32,968 nucleotides of DNA from Aquabacterium sp. GTDB taxonomy: Bacteria; Pseudomonadota; Gammaproteobacteria; Burkholderiales; Burkholderiaceae_C. The DNA lies in assembly GCF_004297345.1 (NCBI RefSeq), contig NZ_SCTN01000485.1:1-32968 (forward strand). The letters run 5' to 3'. Shown piece after piece: positions 654 through 20,682 of the stretch. Numbering within the stretch: position 1 is the stretch's first letter; each line of letters begins with the position of its first letter. The translations under genes were made by a program, and so were the position numbers. The notes under the pieces are model-generated. The model was not told the origin of the DNA, did not search any database, and was given only the letters and a program-made list of their open reading frames with translations.

Positions 654-689
654 AAGGGTTGCCACGCGGTCAAACGCGTGACAACCCTT
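654..689 (-). terminator. Rho-independent-type terminator after the porin/binding-protein unit
   Basis: Fifteen-base arms AAGGGTTGTCACGCG and CGCGTGGCAACCCTT (minus strand) flank a six-base loop. The single non-Watson-Crick position is a G-U wobble when read as minus-strand RNA but an A-C mismatch in plus-strand RNA, which favours action on minus-strand transcripts. It is followed by UAUUGUUU and lies just past the stop of the phosphate-binding-like gene (702), so it most likely ends that transcript and insulates the desaturase promoter. Confidence 0.75.
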
Positions 690-701
690 GCCTGGAGAGA
701 C

Positions 702-1133
702 TTATTCCACGGTCAGAACAACTTTGACCGTGCTATCCACGGCAGACTTTTCGATATAGCCAATGGCATCCACGTTGGAGGCCACATGCTTCTTCACGTC
801 AGCGGCGCTCGGCACTTCCTTGGGAGGCGTGGCCTTACCAGAGAAGGTCAGACGCGCCCAGGTGGCCTTCACCTGCGCAGACGACTTGCCAGCAGCCTTG
901 CTGTAGAACATGTCGCGCGCTGCAGTCGATTCAGGCAGGTCTGCGGGCACCGCAGTCTGACCGGTCGGCAGCGTCGAGGTTTTACCCAGGAAGATGGCGG
1001 CGGCTTGTTCTGGCGTCATCGATGCCAGCGAGCTCTTGGGGTTGACGATCACAGCGACCTGCGCGCTGGCTGCTTGAGCCAGGGTCAGAAGTGCAACTGC
1101 GGCGGCGGCTTGAAGGGTGTGCTTGATGTTCAT
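702..1133 (-). CDS. Short periplasmic phosphate-binding-like (PstS-like) protein
   Basis: A 143-residue exported protein. Residues 1-24 form a signal peptide with a likely cleavage after ASA. The mature part has the pattern of small PBP-like proteins usually annotated as phosphate ABC transporter substrate-binding protein: VNPKSSLASMTPEQAAAIFLGK near the N-terminus, then STAARDMFY and DAIGYIEKSAV near the end. It is far shorter than true PstS (about 320-350 residues) and no ABC permease or ATPase is nearby, so I do not infer phosphate import. It is the second gene of a unit with the porin upstream (17-base gap) and has a good AGGGAG ribosome site 7 bases before the ATG. The ligand is unknown. 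Confidence 0.75.
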   Translation of the reverse strand: MNIKHTLQAAAAVALLTLAQAASAQVAVIVNPKSSLASMTPEQAAAIFLGKTSTLPTGQTAVPADLPESTAARDMFYSKAAGKSSAQVKATWARLTFSGKATPPKEVPSAADVKKHVASNVDAIGYIEKSAVDSTVKVVLTVE

Positions 1134-1150
1134 GTGATGCTCCCTTCCGC

Positions 1151-2530
1151 TCAGAACACGAAGTCAACCGAAACGGACAACACGTTGACCGTTCGCTTGG
1201 AGTTCAGGAAATTCTGAGCCGTGGTGGTAGCCGGATCGGGAATCAGGAACATGCCATTGGAATCTACCGGCTTGATGATGTGATCGACTTGGGCCTTGAT
1301 CGCCATATTGCTTGTGGCATCCCAACGCACCCCCAACGTCGTCGTCTTCTGGTCAAGCTTTTCAACCCCCAGAACCTGATTCACGCCGCCCTGTACCGTC
1401 AAGATATACGCATCCAAACCGGTGCCGGAAAGCTGAGTGACCGGATTCGCTGATCTGCGATTTGTCACAACCTTGGAGAGACCGATGTAAGGGGTGAATT
1501 TCTCAACACGGTAGCCCAAAGTGCCGTACCAACCTGTCGTGTCCGTCACGAAACTGTCAGTTTTACGCTTTGTATACTCGCCATTGAATACCCAATTGTC
1601 TTGGTCATAGCTCAAGCCAAAACCTGTGAAGGTTGCATTCACGCCGGAAGGATTAACCAGCGCATCGACCTGATTCAATTGCCCAAGAATGACTTGACCA
1701 GTCGCACCAAGCCCCCCCGCAATTTGACCGCGACGCAATGCACCTGCGGCGGCAGCACCTTGCGAAGTCGCAGAATCACCTGCAATTGTTTGCCCTGAAG
1801 CCAAAGCGCGCAGGTTGCTGTTGCTTTCGGAATTCAGGGTCAATTTCCCCTGACTCCGGCCGAGACGCATCGACCAGCCTTCACTCAACTCGGCTTGGAT
1901 ATTCAGGCCAATCTGCCCTTGAATCAACACCTCCGTTGGCGCTTTCACACTTGCCGAATTAAAGAGGGCCTTTGAATCACCCGCCCACAAGGTCGCCGTC
2001 ACGGTAGAGGCACCTATACTCATCTGATAACTCGCGTCAGCCCCCTGGAACTGACTAACCGGCACCTGACCGTAGACATCCAGATTTGGACGAACAGTGG
2101 TGTTCGCATAACCGACGTCGCGAAAATCAGAAATCATGAAGTAGGGAGCACCCATGCGGCCTGCACGAAGCGATAGGCCAGGCAAAGCTTGCCATTTAGC
2201 AAAGGCCCACTCAATGTTGGGGATGTACTGCCCCTCCGCATCGTACTTGGTCATGACCTGAGCGGTACCTGAGACGGTAGGCGCAAACTTGTACGTGCCC
2301 TGAACGGCAACTTTACTATCAGGACTCAGGCTTCCACGCTTGGTAGCACCACCCCCTTGACCAGGATAGTTGAACTCCGCATCGTCCGTACCGTTCTTAA
2401 CAGCACCCAAGGTGCCAAAACCAGACATCCGGAAGTTGCCATCAGGCGACTGGTACTCAGCATGAGCACCCATACAGGTGACCAAAGCTGCGGCCGCCAA
2501 GGGTAGGCGCCGAAGTTTTTTCTCTGACAT
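1151..2530 (-). CDS. Outer-membrane beta-barrel porin-like protein
   Basis: A 459-residue protein with a signal peptide (about residues 1-24, cleavage after AHA) and the typical last residue of an outer-membrane barrel: it ends VDFVF, with alternating hydrophobic residues in the final strand. The N-terminal SGFGTLG strand and repeated amphipathic strands with short turns fit a porin. A Gly/Ala/Gln-rich segment around residues 240-290 probably forms a large loop. The start has GAGGAG eight bases upstream. Base composition is lower in G+C than the neighbours (the 60 bases from 1561 are about 40% G+C by hand count), which may mean transfer or relaxed codon choice. It is co-oriented with the periplasmic binding-like protein, suggesting one uptake or sensing task. 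Substrate unknown. Confidence 0.75.
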   Translation of the reverse strand: MSEKKLRRLPLAAAALVTCMGAHAEYQSPDGNFRMSGFGTLGAVKNGTDDAEFNYPGQGGGATKRGSLSPDSKVAVQGTYKFAPTVSGTAQVMTKYDAEGQYIPNIEWAFAKWQALPGLSLRAGRMGAPYFMISDFRDVGYANTTVRPNLDVYGQVPVSQFQGADASYQMSIGASTVTATLWAGDSKALFNSASVKAPTEVLIQGQIGLNIQAELSEGWSMRLGRSQGKLTLNSESNSNLRALASGQTIAGDSATSQGAAAAGALRRGQIAGGLGATGQVILGQLNQVDALVNPSGVNATFTGFGLSYDQDNWVFNGEYTKRKTDSFVTDTTGWYGTLGYRVEKFTPYIGLSKVVTNRRSANPVTQLSGTGLDAYILTVQGGVNQVLGVEKLDQKTTTLGVRWDATSNMAIKAQVDHIIKPVDSNGMFLIPDPATTTAQNFLNSKRTVNVLSVSVDFVF

Positions 2531-2713: not shown

Positions 2714-2735
2714 TCACTAATGCACGAATTAGTGA
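2714..2735. repeat. Perfect 22-bp palindrome over the plsC stop codon
   Basis: TCACTAAT, a six-base spacer, then ATTAGTGA: perfect eight-base arms, A+T-rich in a high-G+C setting. The TAA stop of plsC (2731-2729) lies inside the right arm. It could be an operator for the porin promoter or a stem ending the pyr-plsC transcript; the absence of a U-run after the stem on the minus strand argues against a simple terminator. Confidence 0.5.
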
Positions 2736-9068: not shown

Positions 9069-10178
9069 TTAGAACAGCTCGACGTCGCCGACGTGCGTGT
9101 CTTCCGACTTCAGCACACCTTCACGCACCAGCGCCTCGTAACACAGCACTTGATTGCGCCCCTGGTGCTTGGCTTGATAAACGCCCTGATCCGCACGGGA
9201 GAAGGACACGTTGGGCGTGTCCTTGTGCTCGATCTCGGTGAAGCCCACGCTCACCGTCACCCGGTTGATCTGCGGGAAAGGATAGGACTCGACGTTCTTG
9301 CGGAAGCGCTCGAAAGCGCCCATGGCATCGACCTCGGTACCGCCACGCAGCAAGATCACGAATTCCTCGCCGCCAAATCGGTACAGGCGATCGTAGTGAC
9401 GGAATGACTGGCGCATGATGCGCGCCACCAGCACCAGCACTTCATCACCGATCAGGTGGCCAAAACCATCGTTGACCTTCTTGAAGTGGTCGATGTCCAC
9501 CACGCCAAGCCAGTAGCCTGTTGCAGGAACCGAGCGGCGCTCGCCGGCCGGCACCTGGTAGGCGTCCGCCGTAACAGGCATCGAGGCCTTCAGAAACGTG
9601 GCATCGAAGGTCTGACGGTTGAGCAGCCCCGTCAAGGCATCACGCTGGCTGGATTCCAGCAAATTCTGGAAGTTGCCAAACACCTTGAGCAAGGTTTGTA
9701 TCGGGCGCAAGGATTGCAGCGAGAGGGGCTTTTCAGACCAGACCTCCAGCACACCAGGCAAACCCACTTCGACCAGCAAAGGCAATACCGTCACGTGCCG
9801 CAAGCCAGGCTCGGTCACCTCTTCACTCAATTCGGCCTGCTCCAGCAAGCGCGAATCCAGCACAGAGGCACGCATGGGATAGGCCGCCAGAGGGGGCAAA
9901 GACTCCAGATCCACCCAGGGCGGATCACTGACCGTCAATTGACCACGCCTGGCCAGGCCGCTGCACAGCCAGTGCCGAGGTTCGTCGTCGCGACCGACCA
10001 GGCGGTACACGCCCACACTGGTCACCGACAACAACTCCAGCACCCCCTGAGCCAGCGACACATCCAGCATCTCGCGATCGCGCTGAGCAGTCAGGGCCGC
10101 CAGATGGGAAATGGCATCCTCCACGACCGGTTGCACGGTCACGTGGTGTGATGGAGGAGGTGTGGTGTGCGCCAACAA
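9069..10178 (-). CDS. Diguanylate cyclase with N-terminal GAF-like sensor domain
   Basis: About 369 residues. The C-terminal half is a complete GGDEF domain: DALTGLLNR start, DIDHFKKVND Mg/GTP region and RFGGEEF active loop, so it should make c-di-GMP from two GTP. RHYD five residues before GGEEF is an intact inhibitory I-site. The N-terminal 170 residues resemble a GAF-type fold; no membrane segment is seen, so it is cytoplasmic. The track start is a TTG at 10178, 17 bases after the chpA stop; no good ribosome site supports any start, and GTG codons near residues 13-15 are alternatives. Same strand and spacing suggest it is the last gene of the Pil-Chp operon, linking that pathway to c-di-GMP (inference). 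Confidence 0.9.
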   Translation of the reverse strand: MLAHTTPPPSHHVTVQPVVEDAISHLAALTAQRDREMLDVSLAQGVLELLSVTSVGVYRLVGRDDEPRHWLCSGLARRGQLTVSDPPWVDLESLPPLAAYPMRASVLDSRLLEQAELSEEVTEPGLRHVTVLPLLVEVGLPGVLEVWSEKPLSLQSLRPIQTLLKVFGNFQNLLESSQRDALTGLLNRQTFDATFLKASMPVTADAYQVPAGERRSVPATGYWLGVVDIDHFKKVNDGFGHLIGDEVLVLVARIMRQSFRHYDRLYRFGGEEFVILLRGGTEVDAMGAFERFRKNVESYPFPQINRVTVSVGFTEIEHKDTPNVSFSRADQGVYQAKHQGRNQVLCYEALVREGVLKSEDTHVGDVELF

Positions 10179-10195
10179 GTCAGTACTACTGTGGA

Positions 10196-13100
10196 TCAGG
10201 CCACCACCTCATGCAGAGCGGCATAGCGGCCCACCAGGGCCAGCAGCTCTTCTTCACCATACGGTTTGCCCAGGTAGTGGTTCACACCCAGTTCGGTCGC
10301 ATAGTCACGATGCTTCTGAGCAATACGTGAGGTGATCATGATGACGGGCAGATCAGACAATTTTTGATCCGCACGGATGTTGCGTACGAGGTCGAAACCA
10401 TCCATGCGGGGCATTTCAATGTCCGACAGTATCACTGCGGGGCGCTCTTGTGCCAGCAATTCGAGGGCTTCCAACCCATCTTTTGCGAGCATCACGCGAT
10501 AACCTTCACGAGCTAGCAGGCGCTGGGTCACCTTGCGCACGGTCAAGGAGTCATCAACGACCAGCACAAGCGGGGTCTGCGCCTCCGTGGACTCCGTCAC
10601 GGTCTTGGCCGTTGGCTTGTTGTTAGGCAGCAGCCAACCGTCGAGCTCCGAGCCCGCTGCGGCCAGTGCTTGCGTCGTCTGAGCCTGAGCGCGGTCACCG
10701 TACACGGTCGCCAAAGCCACCGGGTTGTAGATCAGCGACACGGCGCCCGATGCCAGCAGCGTCATCCCGGCCAGGCCAGGCAAGCGAGCCAGTTGCGGCC
10801 CCAGGTTCTTGACGACCACTTCCTGGTTGCCCAGCACTTCGTCGACGTGCAGCGCAATACGTTGCTGCGCCGAGCGCACGATCACGATCGGCAGGCTACG
10901 GCCACCTTCCATGCCGCGCGGACTGAAGTCCAGCAGCGAGCCCAGCCAGTAGAACGGCAGCACCAGATCGGCAAAGCCGTAGGAGCCTTGCTTGTAGGCC
11001 TGCTCAACCTCTTGCGGACGCGCGCGACGCACCATCTCGATCAGATGGGTTGGCACGGCGATGTTGATGGCGCCACAACGCAGCATCACCACCTTCGTGA
11101 CAGCCGTGGTCAGCGGCAGGATCAGCGTGAAGCTGGTGCCCTTGCCTGCCGAGGTCGCCGTTTCGATGCGACCGCCCATGGCGTTCACTTCGGATCGGAC
11201 CACGTCCATGCCGATGCCACGACCAGCCAGCTCGGTGACCGACTCGGCCGTCGAGAAGCCGGAGGTGAAGATCAGTTGAGACAGTTCGGCTTCGCTGGGC
11301 GTGTCATCCGGCAGCAGCAGGCCCATGGCCACCGCACGCTTGCGGATGCGCTCCAGGTTCAGGCCGGAACCGTCATCACGGAACTCGATGGCCACTTCGT
11401 TGCCCTCATGGCGCAGGGCCACGATGACCTGACCGGCGGCATCCTTGCCTGCGGCCGTGCGTGCAGCCGCATCCTCGATACCGTGGGTGATGCAGTTACG
11501 CAGCAAGTGCTCGAAGGAGCCTGTCATGCGTTCCAGCACGCCGCGGTCGATTTCCGTGGAACCGCCCACAATGTCCAGACGCACCTGTTTGCCGGTTTCC
11601 TTGGCCGCCTGGCGCACCACGCGGTACAAGCGATCAGACAGGCCGTCGAACTCCACCATGCGGGTGCGCAGCAGATCGTCCTGCAGGTCACGCGTCAGGC
11701 GGGCCTGGGCGGCCAACTGGTCTTCTGCCGTTTCAAGGTTGCGCTGCAAGGTGCGCTGCACGGTGGCCACGTCGTTCACCGACTCGGCCATCATGCGGGT
11801 CAACTCCTGGAATCGCGTGTAGCGGTCAAACTCCAGTGGATCGAAGTTCTGGCTCTGTGCACGGGCTGCTTCCATGCGGGTGCTCAGCTGGGTTTCAGCT
11901 TGCAACTCGATGTCACGCAGTTGTTGGCGCAGACGCTCCAGGTTGTCCGTCAGGTCGGTCAACGAACCGCGAATCTGCCCGACCTGCGATTGCAAGCGCG
12001 TGCGGGTGATACTGACTTCACCCGCGTGGTTGACCAGGCGATCCAGCAACTGAGGGCGCACGCGCACCACGGCTTGCGAAGGCGCATGGGCATGCTCGCG
12101 GTCCAGCCGCGCGGTCGGGCCTTGCGCGGCCCGAGGCAAGGTGCCCCAGTCGATCGGTGCCAGCTTGACCTCGGGTTGCTGGCGAGACGTGATCGGCGAC
12201 ACCACCTCGGATGCCACCTCAGGTGCAGCGACTTCAACCGGCGCTGCTGTCGATGGCTCGACAAGCTCGCGCGCTGGCGCCGCGCTCAAACGCTCAGGCG
12301 CGGCCACCACGGGCTCGGCTGGCGGCAAGTCGCGGTTGACCTGCTCGTCATAGCTTTGCGCATCATTGGCACGCAAGGCTTCGAACACTTCAACCAGCCG
12401 GTCGACGCGCCCTTCCAACGGGGCGATGTCGGCGTGCGTGATTTGATCGGACGCCAACAGGCGCTCGATCGTCGATTCCATTCGGTGAGCCAGTTCACCC
12501 AAACGCATGGCACCGGCCAGGCGTGCACCACCCTTGAACGTATGCAAGGTACGCATGCAGGCCGCCGCGGCCGCCGGGTGATCCGGCATCTCCAGCCACT
12601 GGCGCGTCTGGCTGGCCAATTGAGGCAGCAATTCCTGCGCTTCTTCCTCGAAAATCGGGAACAAGTCAGGATCGACGTTGTCCTGCGCATCGATGTCGGA
12701 CTCATCATCCCAATGCACCGGACCAGCCCCCGTCAGCGGCTGCGATGTCGACAGGCCTGATTGCAAGGGATCGGTATCAGCCGACAGGGGCGACAACTCA
12801 CGGAACTCGGCCACACCCAAAGGCGCAGGCTGGGTGACCTCGACCTCTTCAGCCGAGCGAACCAGGCGCAGGTGCGGGCGGGCATCCTCGACTGGCAGAT
12901 CACCCAGCTGAGAATCGCTCAAGACGATGGCTTCAGCGTCTTGCGGAGCTGGCGCAAAAGGATCGGTCTGTGCGTCGCTGGCGGCCTCGTCATCGAGGTC
13001 ACTGACCAGGCTACGCGCTTCGATGCGGCGCGAGGCGTCGTGGTCGTACCACTCCAGGCGGCGCATCAACTCATCTGATGGCGTCTTGAGGAAACCTGCC

Positions 13101-16100
13101 GCGAACTGATGCAGCAAGCGACGGATTTCTTCTGCTGCCTCGTTGAACAGGGCAGCGGCCTCGGTTTCGCCACCACCCAGCGCTTGCGAACGCATCAAGG
13201 CGTGCTCCAGCAAGCGGGCCAGTTGAGACAACTCGGTATAGCCCACGGTGCCGGAGTTACCTGCCAGCGAGTGCGCCAGCGCAATGGCCTCGTCGCTCAC
13301 AGGACGGTGCAACTCAAGCGCCCACTCGCCCAGCGCAGTGGACAAGCGGCGAGATTGCTCGTCTGCTTCGTTCAGGTAGATGTTGAACAGCGGGATGCTG
13401 ATGCGCAGCGGCCCCACCACCTTGACCTGTTCGTCCGCACTCTCTGCATCAGGCGAAGGATCGGCATCAACAGGCACATCGACCGCATCAAAGCCAGCGG
13501 GCTCGACAGGGATCACGACATCCAGATCGGCGGCCTGAGTGGGATCGTCATCGTCCAGGATCACGACCTCTTTGGGATCGGTCAGTTCGACCTCACCCAA
13601 TGGCGCTTCTTCAATCTGCTCATGCTCCGAATACAGCGCAGCAGGCGCGGACGGTGCGTGAATGGTTTCAACTTCGATACCGCTTGCCGCATCAGGCAGC
13701 ACAAGCTCATTGGCAGGAGAAGCCAGATCCAGCACGATCAACTCGTGATCGGGCACAGGCTCGGGCATCAGCGACTGAGGCTGAGTGTCAACCTCAGGCA
13801 AGGCATCCAGATCGAGAACGGTGTCTGACTCAGGGACGTCGATATCCAGCAAAGTGACATCGACATGAGGCAGCTCATGGACATCTTGACCAGACTGCGG
13901 CGGCAGATCAGGCAAGTCCAAATCGTCGAACGACAGTGTCTCGACAACCGGCAGGGACTCGGCCTTGATCTCGTCGACAGCCTGACCCAGGGAGGGCAAC
14001 TCCCAATCGGGCTCGGTGAAGGACTCGGTGAAAGCGGGGCGAGGCTCAGCCTGCAACGCAGGCGCCGGCTCGATCTCTTCTACGTCCGGCAGTTCGGGCT
14101 GAATCGGCTCGGCCAGTACTGCAATGACGGGCTCTGGCGGTTCTTCTGGCAGGCTCTCCGCCTCGGCTGCCGGCGCGGCACCCGTTTCAGCAATGGCACG
14201 GCGCTCACCGCGCAGGCGCAAGGCATCGGCCACATCGATCACAGGCTGAGCAGACCAACCCTTGTCCTGCTTGGCAGAGATGGCATCTGTCCACAGTGCA
14301 AAGTGGCCCAGCACATCAGCCGTCACGGCTTGCAGATCGGCACTGGCAGGCTCTTGCGATGCCAGCCAGGCGTTGTACATCTGCTCGCAAGCCCAACCAG
14401 CCTCGCCATACTCCTTGAGTCCCACCATGCGGGAACTGCCCTTGAGCGTGTGGAACCCGCGGCGCACGGCTGTCAGCGAACCCACATCATCGGGCTGTGA
14501 AGCCAGATGAACCAAGGCCTGCTGCATGTTGTCGATGACCTCGCGCGCTTCCTCCAGGAAGATGTCGCGCATTTCATCGTCTTCTTCCAAACCCGTTTCC
14601 TCAGGCGCAGCCGCAGCGGGCGCCAGAGACAGCGGCGCCTGCGGCGGGAACTGTGGCTCGGGCTGCAGGGTTTCGGCGTCAGACACCGATTGCGTGAAGT
14701 CGCTCAGCACCTGCGAGACCTGCTCGCGGGCAGCGGCCAGAGCCGTTTCGTCCTCGCTGGCCTGAGCGGATTCCAGAGCGGCCTGTGCCGCTGCCACGCT
14801 CTCGGCCAGCCCAGCCTGCTCCTGCACGTGCTGCGTGTCAGCCAGCTTCTGCAGTTGCTCGGAGACCTCGGTCAGGGAAGCGTCATCACGCTCCAGCACC
14901 TCGGCCACCTCTTCGGCCACCGCGTGTGCTTCCTCCTGCTGCACATGCTGCGCAACAAACTCTACCGGGTCAGCCTGGGTTTTTTTTTCCCGGCCCATCA
15001 CGGGCGCCAGCACGCCAGTGGCTTCGTCCATGGTGAACAGGGACTTGGCCAGCGCGGGCTGCACGCCCATCATGTCGATCAGGAAGCCCAGTGCGCCCAG
15101 ATTGGTAGCCAGGCGATCGAACACGCCATCCTGCGCAGCCTGATCCAGATCGGCATCAGGCACCAGCAGGTGATCCACGGCTTCGCGCATGCGCACGGTG
15201 GCGTGCGCCGCGACATCCAGGCCCAGCACGGCCAGCACGCCGCGCATGGATTGCAATTGCGAAGGCACATTGACCAGCGGGGTCACGTCCTTGGGATCGC
15301 GGAAGAACTGATCGATGTGCTTTTCGCAATCGCTCAGGGTGTTGCGCAACTCTTGCACCACACTGCCAATGGTCTGGCGATCGGAGACACGGCGATACAG
15401 CGCTTCCATCCAGGCTTCCAGCGGCTGGGCTTCATGGCCTTCGCTGATGTTCTGAATGCGCTGAGCCAGGCGCTGCACGCGCTGCTGCTGATCCGGATTG
15501 TCGAACTCGCCGTCCTCCAGCGAAGCTTCCAGGTAAAGCAGGCTGGTAGCCACTTCCATGGCCAACGCAGGAGCCGGTGCCTGAGCCGCCTGCACGGTGG
15601 TCTGCACGGCATGGGTCAAGGCATCAGCCAGCACCTGCCCGTCAGGGAACAGGCGGCGCAGGGAGTCGGCCACCAGCGAGAACTGCTCGTTCAAACCACC
15701 CAGGCGCAAAAGCTCGCCTGCCGCGACGGCAGACCAGCCATCCTTGGCACCGGCCACGCGCTTGAGGGCCTGTGCCACCCAGGCGGGGTCGTACTTGCCC
15801 AGCGCCGAGGCCTGCAGATCCACAGGCTTGTGGCGCTCCAGACCAAATGTGCGGCGCACACGGGCCAGCACGGAGTGCTCGGCAGCAGGCACATCAGAGG
15901 CCTGCGCGCAGAAGAACAGGAGTTCATTGGCCAGTCGGTCAGACGGCGTGGCGTTGCCCTTGACCAGCACACGCAACTGGCTGAGCAGTTGCGACAGCAC
16001 ACGCTTGGCGTGCACGGTCAGGGGCACATGGGCGCCGGCCAGACCTTCCAGGAAACCGCTGGCCAGCATCCACGTGGCCGATTCGCGGTGCGCGGATCGC

Positions 16101-16762
16101 TGCACGGCGCCACTGGCCAATGCGGCGCACAGATCGGCCAAAGCCACAGCATCAGCGGGCTGATTGCGCTTGAGCAGGTTCAGCAGGCCGGTTTCGAAAT
16201 CATCAACAGTGCGCGCATCGGCCGCACGGGCCGACACGTTCTCAGGCGGTGCCAGCGGCGCCTCCAGAGACAGATCAGGCCAGTCCTGCGACCACAGATC
16301 GGTGGGACGAGGCAACACACTGCCCACGCGGGCCATCAACGCCTCATATTGAGGAAACAGCGCCATGGCCGAAACAGGCTTGCCAGCCAGTCGGCGGCTC
16401 ACGTAATCGAGCAGCGCAAACGACGCCTTCTCGACGTCGCGCACCGCATCTTCGGTGATGGACTGTGGACGATTGACGAACTTCTGGACCACCGCTTCGG
16501 CGGCACGCAACAAGGTGGCACCAGCAGGCACACCAGCCAACTCCAGCGCACCCACACCCTGGTGGATCTGCTGACGGGCCGTGCGCAGGATCGCAGGGTC
16601 CATGGCGTCCATGTCGGACAGCCCGGCTGATGTCACATCCTTGAGGCAACGATGCAGCGCCTTGTGTGCCGAGTCCAGCGACTTGCGCAGTTCCTCATGC
16701 ACCCAGGCCAATGCACTGAGGTCGTCAGATGGCGAGGGATCGTCGTGGTGCAAGCTGTCCAT
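10196..16762 (-). CDS. chpA: ChpA/PilL-type hybrid chemosensory histidine kinase with multiple Hpt domains
   Basis: A 2188-residue CheA-family kinase of the type IV pilus chemosensory pathway. Visible in order: an N-terminal Hpt-like helix bundle with H67; a degenerate Hpt-like unit in which Q504 replaces histidine (LQSMRG); Hpt with H771 (HTLKGSS); a long acidic Pro/Glu/Asp linker (about 860-1110); Hpt with H1164 (HSLAGNS); Hpt with H1407 (HTFKGGA); dimerisation helices from about 1590; the ATPase domain with N-box HLLRNCITHG (about 1755), DDGSGL and GRGIGMDVV; a CheW-like domain; and a receiver with VDDSLTVRK, acceptor D2114 and the GKP lysine. A run of nine A lies in the coding strand at 14988-14980. 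The gene follows pilJ by 16 bases. Pseudomonas ChpA has a comparable multi-Hpt design. Confidence 0.95.
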   Translation of the reverse strand: MDSLHHDDPSPSDDLSALAWVHEELRKSLDSAHKALHRCLKDVTSAGLSDMDAMDPAILRTARQQIHQGVGALELAGVPAGATLLRAAEAVVQKFVNRPQSITEDAVRDVEKASFALLDYVSRRLAGKPVSAMALFPQYEALMARVGSVLPRPTDLWSQDWPDLSLEAPLAPPENVSARAADARTVDDFETGLLNLLKRNQPADAVALADLCAALASGAVQRSAHRESATWMLASGFLEGLAGAHVPLTVHAKRVLSQLLSQLRVLVKGNATPSDRLANELLFFCAQASDVPAAEHSVLARVRRTFGLERHKPVDLQASALGKYDPAWVAQALKRVAGAKDGWSAVAAGELLRLGGLNEQFSLVADSLRRLFPDGQVLADALTHAVQTTVQAAQAPAPALAMEVATSLLYLEASLEDGEFDNPDQQQRVQRLAQRIQNISEGHEAQPLEAWMEALYRRVSDRQTIGSVVQELRNTLSDCEKHIDQFFRDPKDVTPLVNVPSQLQSMRGVLAVLGLDVAAHATVRMREAVDHLLVPDADLDQAAQDGVFDRLATNLGALGFLIDMMGVQPALAKSLFTMDEATGVLAPVMGREKKTQADPVEFVAQHVQQEEAHAVAEEVAEVLERDDASLTEVSEQLQKLADTQHVQEQAGLAESVAAAQAALESAQASEDETALAAAREQVSQVLSDFTQSVSDAETLQPEPQFPPQAPLSLAPAAAAPEETGLEEDDEMRDIFLEEAREVIDNMQQALVHLASQPDDVGSLTAVRRGFHTLKGSSRMVGLKEYGEAGWACEQMYNAWLASQEPASADLQAVTADVLGHFALWTDAISAKQDKGWSAQPVIDVADALRLRGERRAIAETGAAPAAEAESLPEEPPEPVIAVLAEPIQPELPDVEEIEPAPALQAEPRPAFTESFTEPDWELPSLGQAVDEIKAESLPVVETLSFDDLDLPDLPPQSGQDVHELPHVDVTLLDIDVPESDTVLDLDALPEVDTQPQSLMPEPVPDHELIVLDLASPANELVLPDAASGIEVETIHAPSAPAALYSEHEQIEEAPLGEVELTDPKEVVILDDDDPTQAADLDVVIPVEPAGFDAVDVPVDADPSPDAESADEQVKVVGPLRISIPLFNIYLNEADEQSRRLSTALGEWALELHRPVSDEAIALAHSLAGNSGTVGYTELSQLARLLEHALMRSQALGGGETEAAALFNEAAEEIRRLLHQFAAGFLKTPSDELMRRLEWYDHDASRRIEARSLVSDLDDEAASDAQTDPFAPAPQDAEAIVLSDSQLGDLPVEDARPHLRLVRSAEEVEVTQPAPLGVAEFRELSPLSADTDPLQSGLSTSQPLTGAGPVHWDDESDIDAQDNVDPDLFPIFEEEAQELLPQLASQTRQWLEMPDHPAAAAACMRTLHTFKGGARLAGAMRLGELAHRMESTIERLLASDQITHADIAPLEGRVDRLVEVFEALRANDAQSYDEQVNRDLPPAEPVVAAPERLSAAPARELVEPSTAAPVEVAAPEVASEVVSPITSRQQPEVKLAPIDWGTLPRAAQGPTARLDREHAHAPSQAVVRVRPQLLDRLVNHAGEVSITRTRLQSQVGQIRGSLTDLTDNLERLRQQLRDIELQAETQLSTRMEAARAQSQNFDPLEFDRYTRFQELTRMMAESVNDVATVQRTLQRNLETAEDQLAAQARLTRDLQDDLLRTRMVEFDGLSDRLYRVVRQAAKETGKQVRLDIVGGSTEIDRGVLERMTGSFEHLLRNCITHGIEDAAARTAAGKDAAGQVIVALRHEGNEVAIEFRDDGSGLNLERIRKRAVAMGLLLPDDTPSEAELSQLIFTSGFSTAESVTELAGRGIGMDVVRSEVNAMGGRIETATSAGKGTSFTLILPLTTAVTKVVMLRCGAINIAVPTHLIEMVRRARPQEVEQAYKQGSYGFADLVLPFYWLGSLLDFSPRGMEGGRSLPIVIVRSAQQRIALHVDEVLGNQEVVVKNLGPQLARLPGLAGMTLLASGAVSLIYNPVALATVYGDRAQAQTTQALAAAGSELDGWLLPNNKPTAKTVTESTEAQTPLVLVVDDSLTVRKVTQRLLAREGYRVMLAKDGLEALELLAQERPAVILSDIEMPRMDGFDLVRNIRADQKLSDLPVIMITSRIAQKHRDYATELGVNHYLGKPYGEEELLALVGRYAALHEVVA
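14980..14988 (-). repeat. A9 homopolymer within chpA
   Basis: Nine consecutive A on the coding strand (T9 on the plus strand) encoding part of REKKTQ at about residues 592-595, between the degenerate Hpt-like unit and the H771 Hpt. Such a run is rare in this high-G+C sequence and is a known type of slippage site for polymerase or reverse-phase switching; no effect is shown here. Confidence 0.8.
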
Positions 16763-16778
16763 GGGTCAATGCGCTCTC

Positions 16779-19118
16779 TCAGGAAGCGATCTTGAATCGG
16801 GCCACCGATTGCTGGAGTTCGTTGGCGGTACGGGACAACTCACGCACCAACTGCGTAGTCGAACGGGTACCTTCACCGGTCTGCTCGGTCACGGCGAAAA
16901 TGTGCTGGATGTTGGCCACCACCACGTTCGCCGATTCGGCTTCACGCAAGGCTTGCGAGGAAATCTGCTCAATCAGCTCGGCAAGGCGGCGTGACACGCG
17001 GTCGATGTCGCCCAGCGCGGAACCGGCGGCGTCAGACAGTCGGGCCCCTTCCACCACACCCTGCGTGGAGCGTTCCATAGCGGCCACGGCATCTTGCGTG
17101 TCAGTCTGAATGGTACGCACCAACGCAGCAATTTCACGGGTCGCATCGCCGGAACGTTCAGCCAGACGCTGCACTTCTTCGGCCACCACAGAGAAGCCGC
17201 GACCGGCTTCACCCGCAGATGCCGCTTGAATGGCGGCGTTCAAAGCCAGCACGTTGGTCTGCTCGGTAATGTCAGAAATCAGCTCGGTGATTTCGCCGAT
17301 TTCCTGAGAAGACTCACCCAGTCGCTTGATGCGCTTGGAGGTTTCCTGGATCTGCTCACGGATGGTGTTCATACCGCCGATGGCGTTCTGCACGGCAGCC
17401 AGACCGGAGTCAGCGGCGGCCAGCGATTGGCGCGCCACCTCGGCGGAGTGCTGGGCTTGCGCGGACACCTCGTTAATGCGGCCGGCCATCTGCAGCACCG
17501 ACTCACCGGTTTCGCGGATCTCGCGCAGTTGCTCGTCAGATGCGGCCAGCAGTTCGGTCGACGTGGTTTCCACCTCACCGGTGGTTTCCGTCACCCGTTG
17601 CACCGTGCCTTGCACTTGCGACACCAGGTTACGCAGCTCTTCCACCGTGAAGTTCACCGAGTCGGCGATGGCGCCGGTGATGTCTTCCGTCACGGTTGCT
17701 TGTTGCGTCAAGTCACCTTCAGCGACCAGTTGCAGTTCGTTCATCAGTCGCAGAATGGCCGCCTGGTTGGCGTCGTTCACGCGCTTGGCTTCGCGCTCCA
17801 TGCGCTCGGCTTCCTGCCGCTGTTGCTCAGCGATCTGACGACGGTGCGTTTGATCGGTCACGAACACACGGAACAGGCCGTAGGCCGAGGCCACGGTCAC
17901 CAGCAGCGACACCAGAATCATGGCCACGTTCAGGCCACCGATGCCAGCGCCCTCGGTCAGCTTCTGCTGCACGGTCTCCAGGCCCTTGCGCAGAGGCTCG
18001 GAGTCATCGATCACCGCCACCTGAGCATCACGCGCAGCCACCAGGCCTTGCAGCGAACCCAGGATGAAGGTCGATTGCGTGCGGGTGCGTTCGAAGATTT
18101 TCAGCAGGGCTTCCAGCTGCTCACGCACAGCCGGATCCTTGGAGGCCACCAGCTTCAACTCGCCATTGCCGTTGAGCATGCCTTCGGCGATTTCCTTGAA
18201 GGCGTTCAAGTCCTTGCCCAGCAGGAACACGGCCTCGGTCGACACGCCTTCCACGGTCAGGAATTCGTTGGCCGACTTACCGATACGCTGCGTCAGCATC
18301 ACCAACTGGTTGAGCGACGACATTTCAGAGGAAGACACACCGCCCTTGTCGATCTTGGTCGAGGCGATACCTTCGGCCAGATCCAGCAGTTCGGACGACT
18401 GGCTGTTGACTTCACGCAGGGCCTGGCTCACCTGAGTCAGGGTCTGCTTCTGCTTCAACACGTAGTCGGCGTTCTTCTCGGCGCGGTCTACCAGAGGCAG
18501 CAGCTTGGTCAGCTCTTCCTTAGCAGCGCCATGCACTTCGCTCAGACCCAGCTTGGCGTCGCCCTTGTCCAGACCACGCACGTTGCTGGCCAGCACCTTG
18601 GAGCTATCGGCCACTTCGCCGAAAGCCTGTGCACGACCGATCAAAGCCTGCGAGACCGACTTCGCCAGACGTTGCGACTGCATCAGCGCCTGACCGGTTG
18701 CCCCGGTTTGCGCGGCGCGACGGTCTGCGGAGGTCACCGACAGGAAGGCCGACAAGAGCAGGCCCACCATGCCGACACCCAAGGCGCCGCCGATGAAGCG
18801 CTGCTGTTTGTCCAGGCGCCACTGACCGATAACGGGCAGGCCGGTCTGGGGCTCCAGCAAAGCGTTGGGCGTGTCAACAGCCTCGTTCTTGAGCCGGTTG
18901 TCGTGATAGTCGGGCGGGAACTCGGAAGGCGCAGCCTCCGAGATGATCGAGTCCGACGTGATCGTGCTGCCCGGCTGAAGGGTTGAAGGCGCAGCCTGCG
19001 TGTCCACAGACTGGGCACCCGAGGACGTGACCATCCCTTCGGTGCTCAAGGCTTCCGACTGGACCTCCTCGTCGTCCTGTGTTTTGCCCAGGTCCTTGAT
19101 TCGACTCAGGAAACTCAT
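16779..19118 (-). CDS. pilJ: Type IV pilus methyl-accepting chemoreceptor
   Basis: A 779-residue receptor that feeds the PilI/ChpA complex. The track starts at a TTG (19133); ATG at 19118 with GGAG nine bases upstream fits better. The first 108 residues are a polar, Ser/Thr/Glu-rich extension, then TM1 (about 109-128), a periplasmic region of some 260 residues with two PilJ-type helical sensing units, TM2 (about 393-415), a HAMP-like linker, and the signalling hairpin with tip [24 protein letters not shown] near residue 623. [11 protein letters not shown] is characteristic of PilJ rather than flagellar receptors ([12 protein letters not shown]). It has no C-terminal CheR-binding pentapeptide. 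The long cytoplasmic N-terminal extension is longer than I would expect from Pseudomonas PilJ. Confidence 0.94.
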
Positions 19119-19169
19119 GTCCTTACACTCCAAACAGTCAGCTGTGACAGCCAGACGGGGTTGAGCCCG

Positions 19170-19712
19170 TCAAACATCAATTTTCAAAAAGGCCTCGTCA
19201 GCCACCAGGCTGGCCAGGTCGAGTTCGTACCAGGTGCGCCCTTGCACGTCGTTCAATTGCTGGCCGATGAAATGGGGGCTGGGCGCGCCTGAACCTGCCT
19301 CAGCGGGCGTCAGGGCACTGGCGTTACGCAAACCCATCAAGCGATCGATCAGCAAGGCTGCATTCATTTGCAAACCCGAGTTGAAGGCGATCAGGCGGCC
19401 GGCATCGCGTGCGGCCACTTCGGCCAGGTTGCGGGTCTGGCGCTGCGGCAAGCCCAGAAAGGCCGCCATGTCGATCACACCGTGCAACTGCCCACGCAGG
19501 TTGGCCACACCCAGGAACCAGTCCTGGCTATGAGGCACGGGCTGAATGGTGGACAGCGGGAAGATTTCGCCCGCTTGATCCAGCGACAGCAAAAAGCCGT
19601 GACCGGCGATCTCGACGGCCAGCCAGCTGCGAGCAGGCGCCTGCTGGCGCACCATCTGCAGACGATCTGCCAGACGTTGCTGCAACTCCCTCAGGGCTTC
19701 TTTATTGGCCAT
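19170..19712 (-). CDS. pilI: CheW-like adaptor of the Pil-Chp pathway
   Basis: A 180-residue CheW-domain protein that should couple PilJ receptors to the ChpA kinase. The CheW core is recognisable from WLAVEIAGHGFLLSLDQAGEIFPL through the LGVANLRGQLHGVIDMAAFLGL segment, which is the conserved CheW NLRG/D region. ATG at 19712 is the first start in frame. It lies 41 bases after pilH and 51 bases before pilJ, in the conserved pilG-H-I-J order. Confidence 0.92.
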   Translation of the reverse strand: MANKEALRELQQRLADRLQMVRQQAPARSWLAVEIAGHGFLLSLDQAGEIFPLSTIQPVPHSQDWFLGVANLRGQLHGVIDMAAFLGLPQRQTRNLAEVAARDAGRLIAFNSGLQMNAALLIDRLMGLRNASALTPAEAGSGAPSPHFIGQQLNDVQGRTWYELDLASLVADEAFLKIDV

Positions 19713-19753
19713 CTGGATGCGCTCTCTTGTTCTTTCTTCTTACCCTGCCGATC

Positions 19754-20119
19754 TCAGCCGAAGGCTTTGATCTTGGACAGCAGTTCTTCAGGATTGACCG
19801 GCTTGACCACGTAATCACGTGCGCCCTGGCGCATGCCCCAGACGCGGTCGGTCTCCTGGTTCTTGCTGGTGCAGATGATGACCGGCACGTTGGCAAACGA
19901 CGGATCGCGCGTGATGGCGCGCGTCAACTGGAAACCATTCTGACCGGGCATGACCACATCCATGAGGATCAGGTCGGGCTTTTCTTCCTGCAGACGGCGC
20001 ATGGCTTCTTCGCCGTTCTCGGCCGTTTTCACCTGGTAGCCCTTTTTCGTGAGCAACTCGGACAGCACGTGCAGTTCGGTCTTGGAATCGTCAACCAGCA
20101 ATATTTTCTGAATAGGCAT
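19754..20119 (-). CDS. pilH: Single-domain response regulator PilH
   Basis: A 121-residue CheY-like receiver. The acidic pocket VDDS (D10, D11), phosphoacceptor D54 in LILMDVVMPG, the switch threonine in IICTSK and the conserved lysine in VVKP are all present. No output domain. In Pseudomonas PilH acts with or against PilG, influencing pilus retraction and serving as a phosphate sink. Start ATG has GAGGAG six bases upstream. Identification as PilH rather than PilG rests on its position second in the operon and on the NGFQLTRAI sequence. Confidence 0.93.
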   Translation of the reverse strand: MPIQKILLVDDSKTELHVLSELLTKKGYQVKTAENGEEAMRRLQEEKPDLILMDVVMPGQNGFQLTRAITRDPSFANVPVIICTSKNQETDRVWGMRQGARDYVVKPVNPEELLSKIKAFG

Positions 20120-20181
20120 TTCAACTCCTCAGTGCACGCTCGTTTTGGCTTTCAGCCAGCCGGCGCACACACATTATTCAC

Positions 20182-20198
20182 CCTGTCAGACAGACAGG
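20182..20198. repeat. Small hairpin between pilG and pilH
   Basis: CCTGTC and GACAGG flank five bases in the 98-bp pilG-pilH gap, the largest gap within the operon. There is no U-run after it on the minus strand. It could modulate read-through or mRNA processing between the two response regulator genes. Confidence 0.3.
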
Positions 20199-20217
20199 CT
20201 TACAGGCTCTGTTGCAC

Positions 20218-20616
20218 TCAACCGGCGCTGTATTGCGCCACGGCCTGCAGCAATTGGTCTTTGGTAAAAGGCTTGGTCAGGTAATCCTGCGATCCCACCA
20301 TGCGCCCGCGCGCCTTGTCAAACAGACCATCCTTGGAGGACAGCATGATCACCGGCGTGCTCGTGAAACGGGGGTTTCTTTTGATGATGGCGCAGGTCTG
20401 ATACCCGTCCAGACGGGGCATCAAAATGTCACAAAAAATAACATCTGGATTGTGGTCATTGACCTTCGAGAGCGCGTCAAAACCATCTTCGGCCAGCACG
20501 ACTTCATATCCACCCTGTTTCAGGAAGATTTCCGCACTGCGACGAATGGTGTTGCTGTCGTCAATGACCAGCACTTTGGTTGCCGCCTTCACTTCGGGGC
20601 TATCTGCTTCAGACAC
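20218..20616 (-). CDS. pilG: Single-domain response regulator PilG
   Basis: A 132-residue CheY-like receiver, first of the two in the Pil-Chp cluster; in Pseudomonas PilG promotes pilus extension and cAMP signalling. VIDDSNTIRR, acceptor D63 in IFCDILMPRLDG, the IMLSSKDG switch region and the LTKPF lysine are intact. The track opens at a TTG (20664), but a GTG at 20616 is preceded by a perfect GGAGG with nine bases between (20630-20626), and gives the normal PilG length. It lies 66 bases after the rubredoxin gene. Confidence 0.92.
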   Translation of the reverse strand: MSEADSPEVKAATKVLVIDDSNTIRRSAEIFLKQGGYEVVLAEDGFDALSKVNDHNPDVIFCDILMPRLDGYQTCAIIKRNPRFTSTPVIMLSSKDGLFDKARGRMVGSQDYLTKPFTKDQLLQAVAQYSAG

Positions 20617-20630
20617 GGACGCGTTCCTCC
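20614..20630 (-). promoter_or_regulatory. Ribosome-binding site that fixes the pilG GTG start
   Basis: GGAGG (20630-20626) is followed by nine bases and GTG (20616-20614). It is the clearest Shine-Dalgarno in the operon and argues against the upstream TTG of the ORF track. Confidence 0.7.
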
Positions 20631-20682
20631 AGACTGTCAGAGCCCTCGTCAGGCCCTGAACCAATTCAATTCGATCAAGGAA

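Follow-up and report, generated by a model that had tools for sequence, protein, structure and literature searches.

A conserved porin gene pair in Aquabacterium encoding a single-domain PstS-like protein, and its recurrent association with signalling genes across Proteobacteria

The window analysed here is the whole 32,968-nucleotide stretch of contig NZ_SCTN01000485.1 from an Aquabacterium sp. assembly (GCF_004297345.1; 4.63 Mb, 98% complete, 626 contigs). Near its start, a porin gene and a gene for a small exported protein lie on the minus strand, separated by 17 bp and followed by an intrinsic terminator. The small protein resembles PstS and we refer to it as sPBP, a label given here to the 143-aa PstS-like protein. 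The features of the locus are as follows.

654..689, minus strand: intrinsic terminator 3' of the sPBP gene, with a 15-bp stem and a T-rich tail
702..1133, minus strand: sPBP gene, encoding an exported protein of 143 aa with a signal peptide, corresponding to PstS domain II alone
1134-1150: 17-bp gap between the porin and sPBP genes, containing the ribosome site AAGGGAG
1151..2530, minus strand: porin gene, encoding 459 aa with a signal peptide and a C-terminal Phe (ORF, AlphaFold2 and Foldseek)
1201..2400, minus strand, limits approximate: exchanged porin body, from a drop in DNA identity and a tree conflict
1655..1828, minus strand: porin residues 235-292, the helical outer loop L5, which is hypervariable (pairwise identity 0.16)
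2054..2149, minus strand: constriction loop L3 of the porin, residues 128-159, with strand limits taken from the AlphaFold2 model
2558-2622: imperfect palindrome of 16 nt, 5' of the porin gene, weak
2714..2735, no strand: perfect inverted repeat of 8 bp, 5' of the porin gene, a putative operator

This layout agrees with an earlier note on the same DNA, in which a porin was followed after 17 bp by a 143-residue PstS-like protein and a terminator; all of these elements were confirmed from the open reading frames and the 15-bp stem. The palindromes that it placed before the porin are present but weak. No pst transporter genes were seen among the window ORFs, as the note had also said, nor were any found among the annotated genes around the pair in plasmid relatives, and no signalling gene was found beside the window pair. 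The gene order pyrC-plsC-porin-sPBP-desaturase is kept in 17 Aquabacterium loci, likewise with no signalling gene, and stem-forming sequence was present 3' of sPBP in the 17 Aquabacterium loci examined, several of them with changed stems in which pairing is kept. Since the terminator is retained within Aquabacterium, the desaturase gene that lies past it is probably transcribed separately. The pair of Roseateles, Mitsuaria and relatives lies a few genes away from pyrC-plsC, with an MCP gene after it; Roseateles depolymerans is one host of the linked order porin-sPBP-MCP. Elsewhere in the window (9069-20664) there is a Pil-Chp-type chemosensory cluster, comprising a 2188-aa ChpA-like kinase and PilJ/I/H/G, which adjoins a GGDEF protein and looks ordinary for the group.

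The AlphaFold2 model of the porin (pLDDT 89.3) contains 16 strands, and Foldseek matched it to ordinary trimeric porins, namely VhChiP, OmpC, OmpF and also OprP. The general features of the 16-strand porin superfamily (the 16-strand barrel, the constriction loop and the C-terminal Phe) are all present, the last being found in 145 of 151 porins of the family. No Pfam model matched the window porin, Porin_O_P included; 18 of 43 relatives match Porin_4 and a single one gives a weak match to Porin_O_P. The protein shares its 16-stranded fold with the phosphate-selective porins OprO and OprP, the latter being among its Foldseek matches, but it belongs to a different sequence family and general porins match it equally well. 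Within the genus, pairwise identity is highest in the constriction loop L3 (0.89), intermediate in the strands (0.60) and outer loops (0.35), and lowest in L5.

The porin is lower in G+C than its neighbours, as had been noted before (53.8%, with a GC3 of 0.58 against 0.66-0.88 in the 23 other window genes, sPBP excepted), and it is the only one of the 25 window genes with a negative codon-usage score (-0.12). The atypical composition proposed for the pair is thus confined to the porin, the score of sPBP being normal (+0.22). Together with the presence of some relatives on plasmids, the low G+C and the unusual codon use seen in the porin could be taken to indicate a foreign cassette of recent import, but the comparison with related genomes contradicts this. 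Relative to the nearest species (locus L046), the porin is 59% identical at the protein level against 90-99% for pyrC, PlsC, sPBP and the desaturase, and DNA identity, which is 82-99% on both sides, falls from 93-99% to 49-73% inside the porin and recovers at the porin 3' end. In the porin tree the window groups with L048 at full support, whereas in trees of the flanks it groups with L046, and an AU test on the porin rejects the window+L046 grouping (p 1e-10). The flanks on either side have the same history as sPBP, with the deviation limited to the porin body, and these sequence comparisons indicate that the porin body was swapped by recombination among relatives and that the pair itself was not imported. 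Given also the synteny in Aquabacterium and the retained stem-forming terminator, recent import of the pair is very improbable. The 'self-contained cassette' of the earlier note does not stand in this sense, low G+C being found only in the porin body of a pair that is syntenic in 17 Aquabacterium loci. As findings that would speak against it, the note had named an ancestral pair with typical codon use and no co-regulation, or unlinked genes in relatives; the pair is indeed ancestral in this Aquabacterium, but the genes have not come apart in relatives (see below).

The PstS-like character of sPBP is remote but real, and is limited to the second PstS domain. The window protein has no Pfam match, and when sPBP and 47 relatives were scanned with Pfam, PBP_like_2 was the sole family matched, with no match to the YfiR family. 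In NCBIfam, sPBP scores below the threshold for TIGR02136 and aligns only with profile positions 117-226 of 295. A profile of 46 sPBP relatives searched against the PDB retrieved PstS-type proteins (best E 4e-9). The AlphaFold2 model, built from an alignment that left out six rows from plasmid records, is a single confident domain (pLDDT 94.9), and all of its top Foldseek matches are PstS-type proteins of which about half is covered (TMq ~0.62-0.66, TMt ~0.35), so that the predicted structure identifies sPBP as a stand-alone domain II of PstS. Domain I is missing, and the model does not show the two-lobed periplasmic binding protein fold. The PstS domain II ligands, an Arg and a Ser-Gly-Thr/Ser motif, align to sPBP positions 66 and 70-72, which are Leu/Gln and variable across the 46 relatives. 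Invariant residues are found elsewhere (Phe76, Trp92 and Gly99), as are the nearly invariant Gly50, Gln87, Phe97 and Pro104. With the ligand positions variable and the invariant residues in other places, a PstS-style phosphate clamp is unlikely. The sPBPs, which fall below curated cut-offs, are a family of their own.

These features bear on the possibility that sPBP is a small periplasmic solute-binding protein, which takes phosphate or another anion let in by the porin and hands it to a receptor. The remote homology to PstS would be in keeping with such a role, and binding proteins that report to MCPs or GGDEF proteins are a known arrangement. However, sPBP has a single lobe, variable residues stand in place of the domain II ligands, and no pst genes adjoin the window pair; we consider this role improbable. 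Anion capture, which the earlier note had offered, is not borne out in the form of a PstS-type site; with both the second lobe and the ligand residues missing, phosphate capture was dropped as the main reading. Compared with the PstS of PstSCAB, sPBP retains the fold of domain II but differs in having one lobe rather than two and no conserved ligand residues, and it is coupled to a porin instead of being accompanied by ABC transporter genes.

The porin and sPBP genes are linked over a wide range of Proteobacteria. HMM and phmmer annotation of 157 sPBP loci (the contig scan being run with a closer alignment from which eight distant rows were left out) shows a porin adjoining sPBP in 148, upstream in 124 and downstream in 24, and no porin neighbour in 9. 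This adjacency, together with the pair's own terminator, upholds the earlier view of the two genes as a conserved unit. The sPBP family occurs in 125 of the 369 sampled genomes of the class Gammaproteobacteria at E <= 1e-3, and in ~88 of them, or about a quarter, at E <= 1e-15 (count from the table), with up to 11 copies per genome; it is also present outside the class. Porin and sPBP distances correlate (Mantel r 0.82), a value to which shared ancestry contributes.

An MCP, GGDEF/EAL or histidine kinase (HK) gene lies within 700 bp of the pair in 79 of the 157 loci, many of which are from related genera and so not independent. Most of the neighbouring signalling genes counted (72/81) are on the same strand as the pair, and such genes number 0.52 per locus near the pair compared with 0.03 per kb in the outer flanks, a strong enrichment. 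The class of signalling partner shifts repeatedly along the sPBP tree, a GGDEF/EAL gene being adjacent in 19 relatives, and the sensor domains of the linked partners vary (four-helix bundle, dCache or unassigned); the periplasmic segment of the linked MCPs is ~145 aa long. Plasmids of Massilia and Ideonella carry the order porin-sPBP-MCP-GGDEF protein, Caballeronia has porin-sPBP-GGDEF/EAL, and further examples are found in P. aeruginosa and Pseudoalteromonas plasmids and in Photobacterium, where an HK gene lies beside sPBP-porin. About half of the loci, including that of the window, have no adjacent signalling gene, and some of these may have none at all. The recurrent signalling partners fit the earlier suggestions that the pair might 'sense' or serve an 'outer-membrane role not yet described'.

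The survey also turned up several unusual arrangements. Three porin-less sPBPs (L221, L229 and L230) have a dCache MCP beside them in the first case and a histidine kinase nearby in the other two. Two or three porin-sPBP pairs stand in tandem at L209 (2306-8789, G070:C41), L216 (3639-7140) and L310 (G704). The window genome holds a second, divergent pair (L003, 8244-9561 of G000:C433), which is cut at the contig end and is convergent with a gyrB/parE-like gene. In the same genome, a porin paralogue follows a response regulator and a 1066-aa protein on the minus strand of G000:C601 (L247, 17-5600) and stops at the contig edge; this locus is likely a third module, truncated before its sPBP, since it matches the HK-RR-porin-sPBP arrangement of L161-L165.

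In four genomes from two families (L196-L199), sPBP forms the C-terminal domain of a 563-751-aa protein, in which a cytoplasmic J-like domain is followed by one TM helix, a low-complexity linker of 218-330 aa and then sPBP. The N-terminal parts are 30-59% identical among the four; the J-like domain passes the Pfam DnaJ cut-off in two of them, and the HPD motif is absent from its usual place. Positive residues precede the TM helix in most, and a porin gene adjoins three of the four fusion genes. On this predicted topology, the fused sPBP would sit in the periplasm near the porin, on a tether long enough to span that compartment. Nothing else hints as strongly as these fusions at a role of sPBP as a contact domain that joins the porin to the inner-membrane side, and the J-like/TM/linker/sPBP proteins deserve study as a family in their own right. 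Further apparent fusions derived from long open frames (L200, L202, L310 and L311) were rejected as start-site or overlapping-frame artefacts in G+C-rich DNA.

On balance, we favour a trans-envelope sensory or regulatory unit to which the pair contributes the outer-membrane and periplasmic half; the whole would be made up of the porin, sPBP as an adaptor and an inner-membrane signalling protein. The main rival is that sPBP is a porin-specific assembly factor, gate or tether (a chaperone, a plug or a link to the inner membrane), with the neighbouring signalling genes watching the porin or its solute independently of sPBP. The linkage to porins is tighter than that to signalling genes (148 versus 79 of 157 loci), no signalling gene is linked to the window pair, and the J-like domain of the fusions is suggestive of a chaperone theme. 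On the other hand, a pure chaperone leaves the recurrence of three unrelated signalling classes unexplained, the sPBP of L221 lies beside an MCP with no porin, and the J-like domain is cytoplasmic and has no HPD at the usual place. We therefore regard a dedicated assembly or gating role as unlikely, if the most serious of the alternatives. In the trans-envelope unit that we infer, sPBP would dock at the periplasmic face of the porin and would also contact the inner-membrane sensor, to which it would report the state of the porin, be that solute occupancy or passage, or the condition of the envelope. Reading the porin on behalf of a sensor would make sPBP an adaptor rather than a scavenger of solutes. 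Entry through the porin would be governed by the conserved constriction loop L3, and the variable outer loops may be exposed to phages or other attackers of the cell surface. A porin body that is exchanged locally, with sPBP left in place, would fit selection on the exposed surface.

In the window genome, the pair might signal through an unlinked chemoreceptor, or it might have been reduced to a porin with an accessory protein. The window sPBP clade is nested, with modest support, inside an MCP-linked clade of the sPBP tree. Simple loss of the MCP in Aquabacterium was rejected, since the genome has, at another place, an MCP whose sensor region is related; such an MCP is found in every one of the 12 Aquabacterium genomes sampled, that of the window among them. 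The copy in the window genome (G000:C170, 583 aa) is unlinked; compared over sensor and HAMP region, it and the MCPs linked to the pair in Roseateles and Pseudorhodoferax are reciprocal best matches. Among 37 genomes, the MCP is only loosely co-distributed with the window-type pair, being present in 21 of 24 with the window-type pair and in 7 of 13 without it (Fisher p 0.04, uncorrected for relatedness). In the MCP tree, the unlinked MCPs group with three linked MCPs (Ideonella L010, G009 L294 and G018 L300; SH-aLRT 99), and these accompany other sPBP subtypes than that of the window. The claim of a partner acting in trans is weakened, because the MCP tree and presence profile place this MCP nearer to another sPBP subtype; on these sequence relationships the unlinked MCP is a candidate partner.

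The closest analogy in logic may be YfiBNR of Pseudomonas aeruginosa, in which the outer-membrane YfiB, the small periplasmic YfiR and the inner-membrane GGDEF protein YfiN are encoded together (PMC4655355, PMC3375315). The likeness lies in the three-part combination of an outer-membrane, a small periplasmic and an inner-membrane signalling protein. However, YfiR belongs to a different fold family from sPBP, YfiB is an OmpA-like lipoprotein whereas the outer-membrane partner of sPBP is a 16-strand porin, and YfiN provides a GGDEF output whereas the sPBP pairs are most often linked to an MCP and the window pair to no output at all. Binding proteins are also known to report to chemoreceptors or cyclases, as in PstS-CtpL, MBP-Tar and NspS-MbaA. 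The linked sPBP loci resemble these in having a binding-protein-like periplasmic partner beside an MCP or GGDEF/EAL protein, but sPBP is half a binding protein with no ligand cleft and has a dedicated porin as its constant partner. By analogy, then, the unit would resemble both YfiBNR and binding-protein-dependent receptors in its logic, while failing defining features of YfiBNR and of PstS.

More tentatively, the pair may belong to a widespread class of porin-coupled trans-envelope receptors, in which a half binding protein with no phosphate site reads the state of the porin dedicated to it and drives interchangeable outputs (chemotaxis, c-di-GMP, phosphorelay and, by fusion, a J-like-domain protein); this wider proposal is possible but we would not yet bet on it. 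No description of a porin-sPBP module was found in the literature searched, for which subscription papers were mostly out of reach. The question of porin reading is testable, because linked versions occur in culturable Roseateles, Paucibacter, Variovorax and Pseudoalteromonas. If the proposal is true, many proteins annotated as 'phosphate ABC transporter substrate-binding protein' would be misnamed, and outer-membrane permeability would itself be a sensory input, with porin readers wired to chemotaxis, c-di-GMP and kinases.
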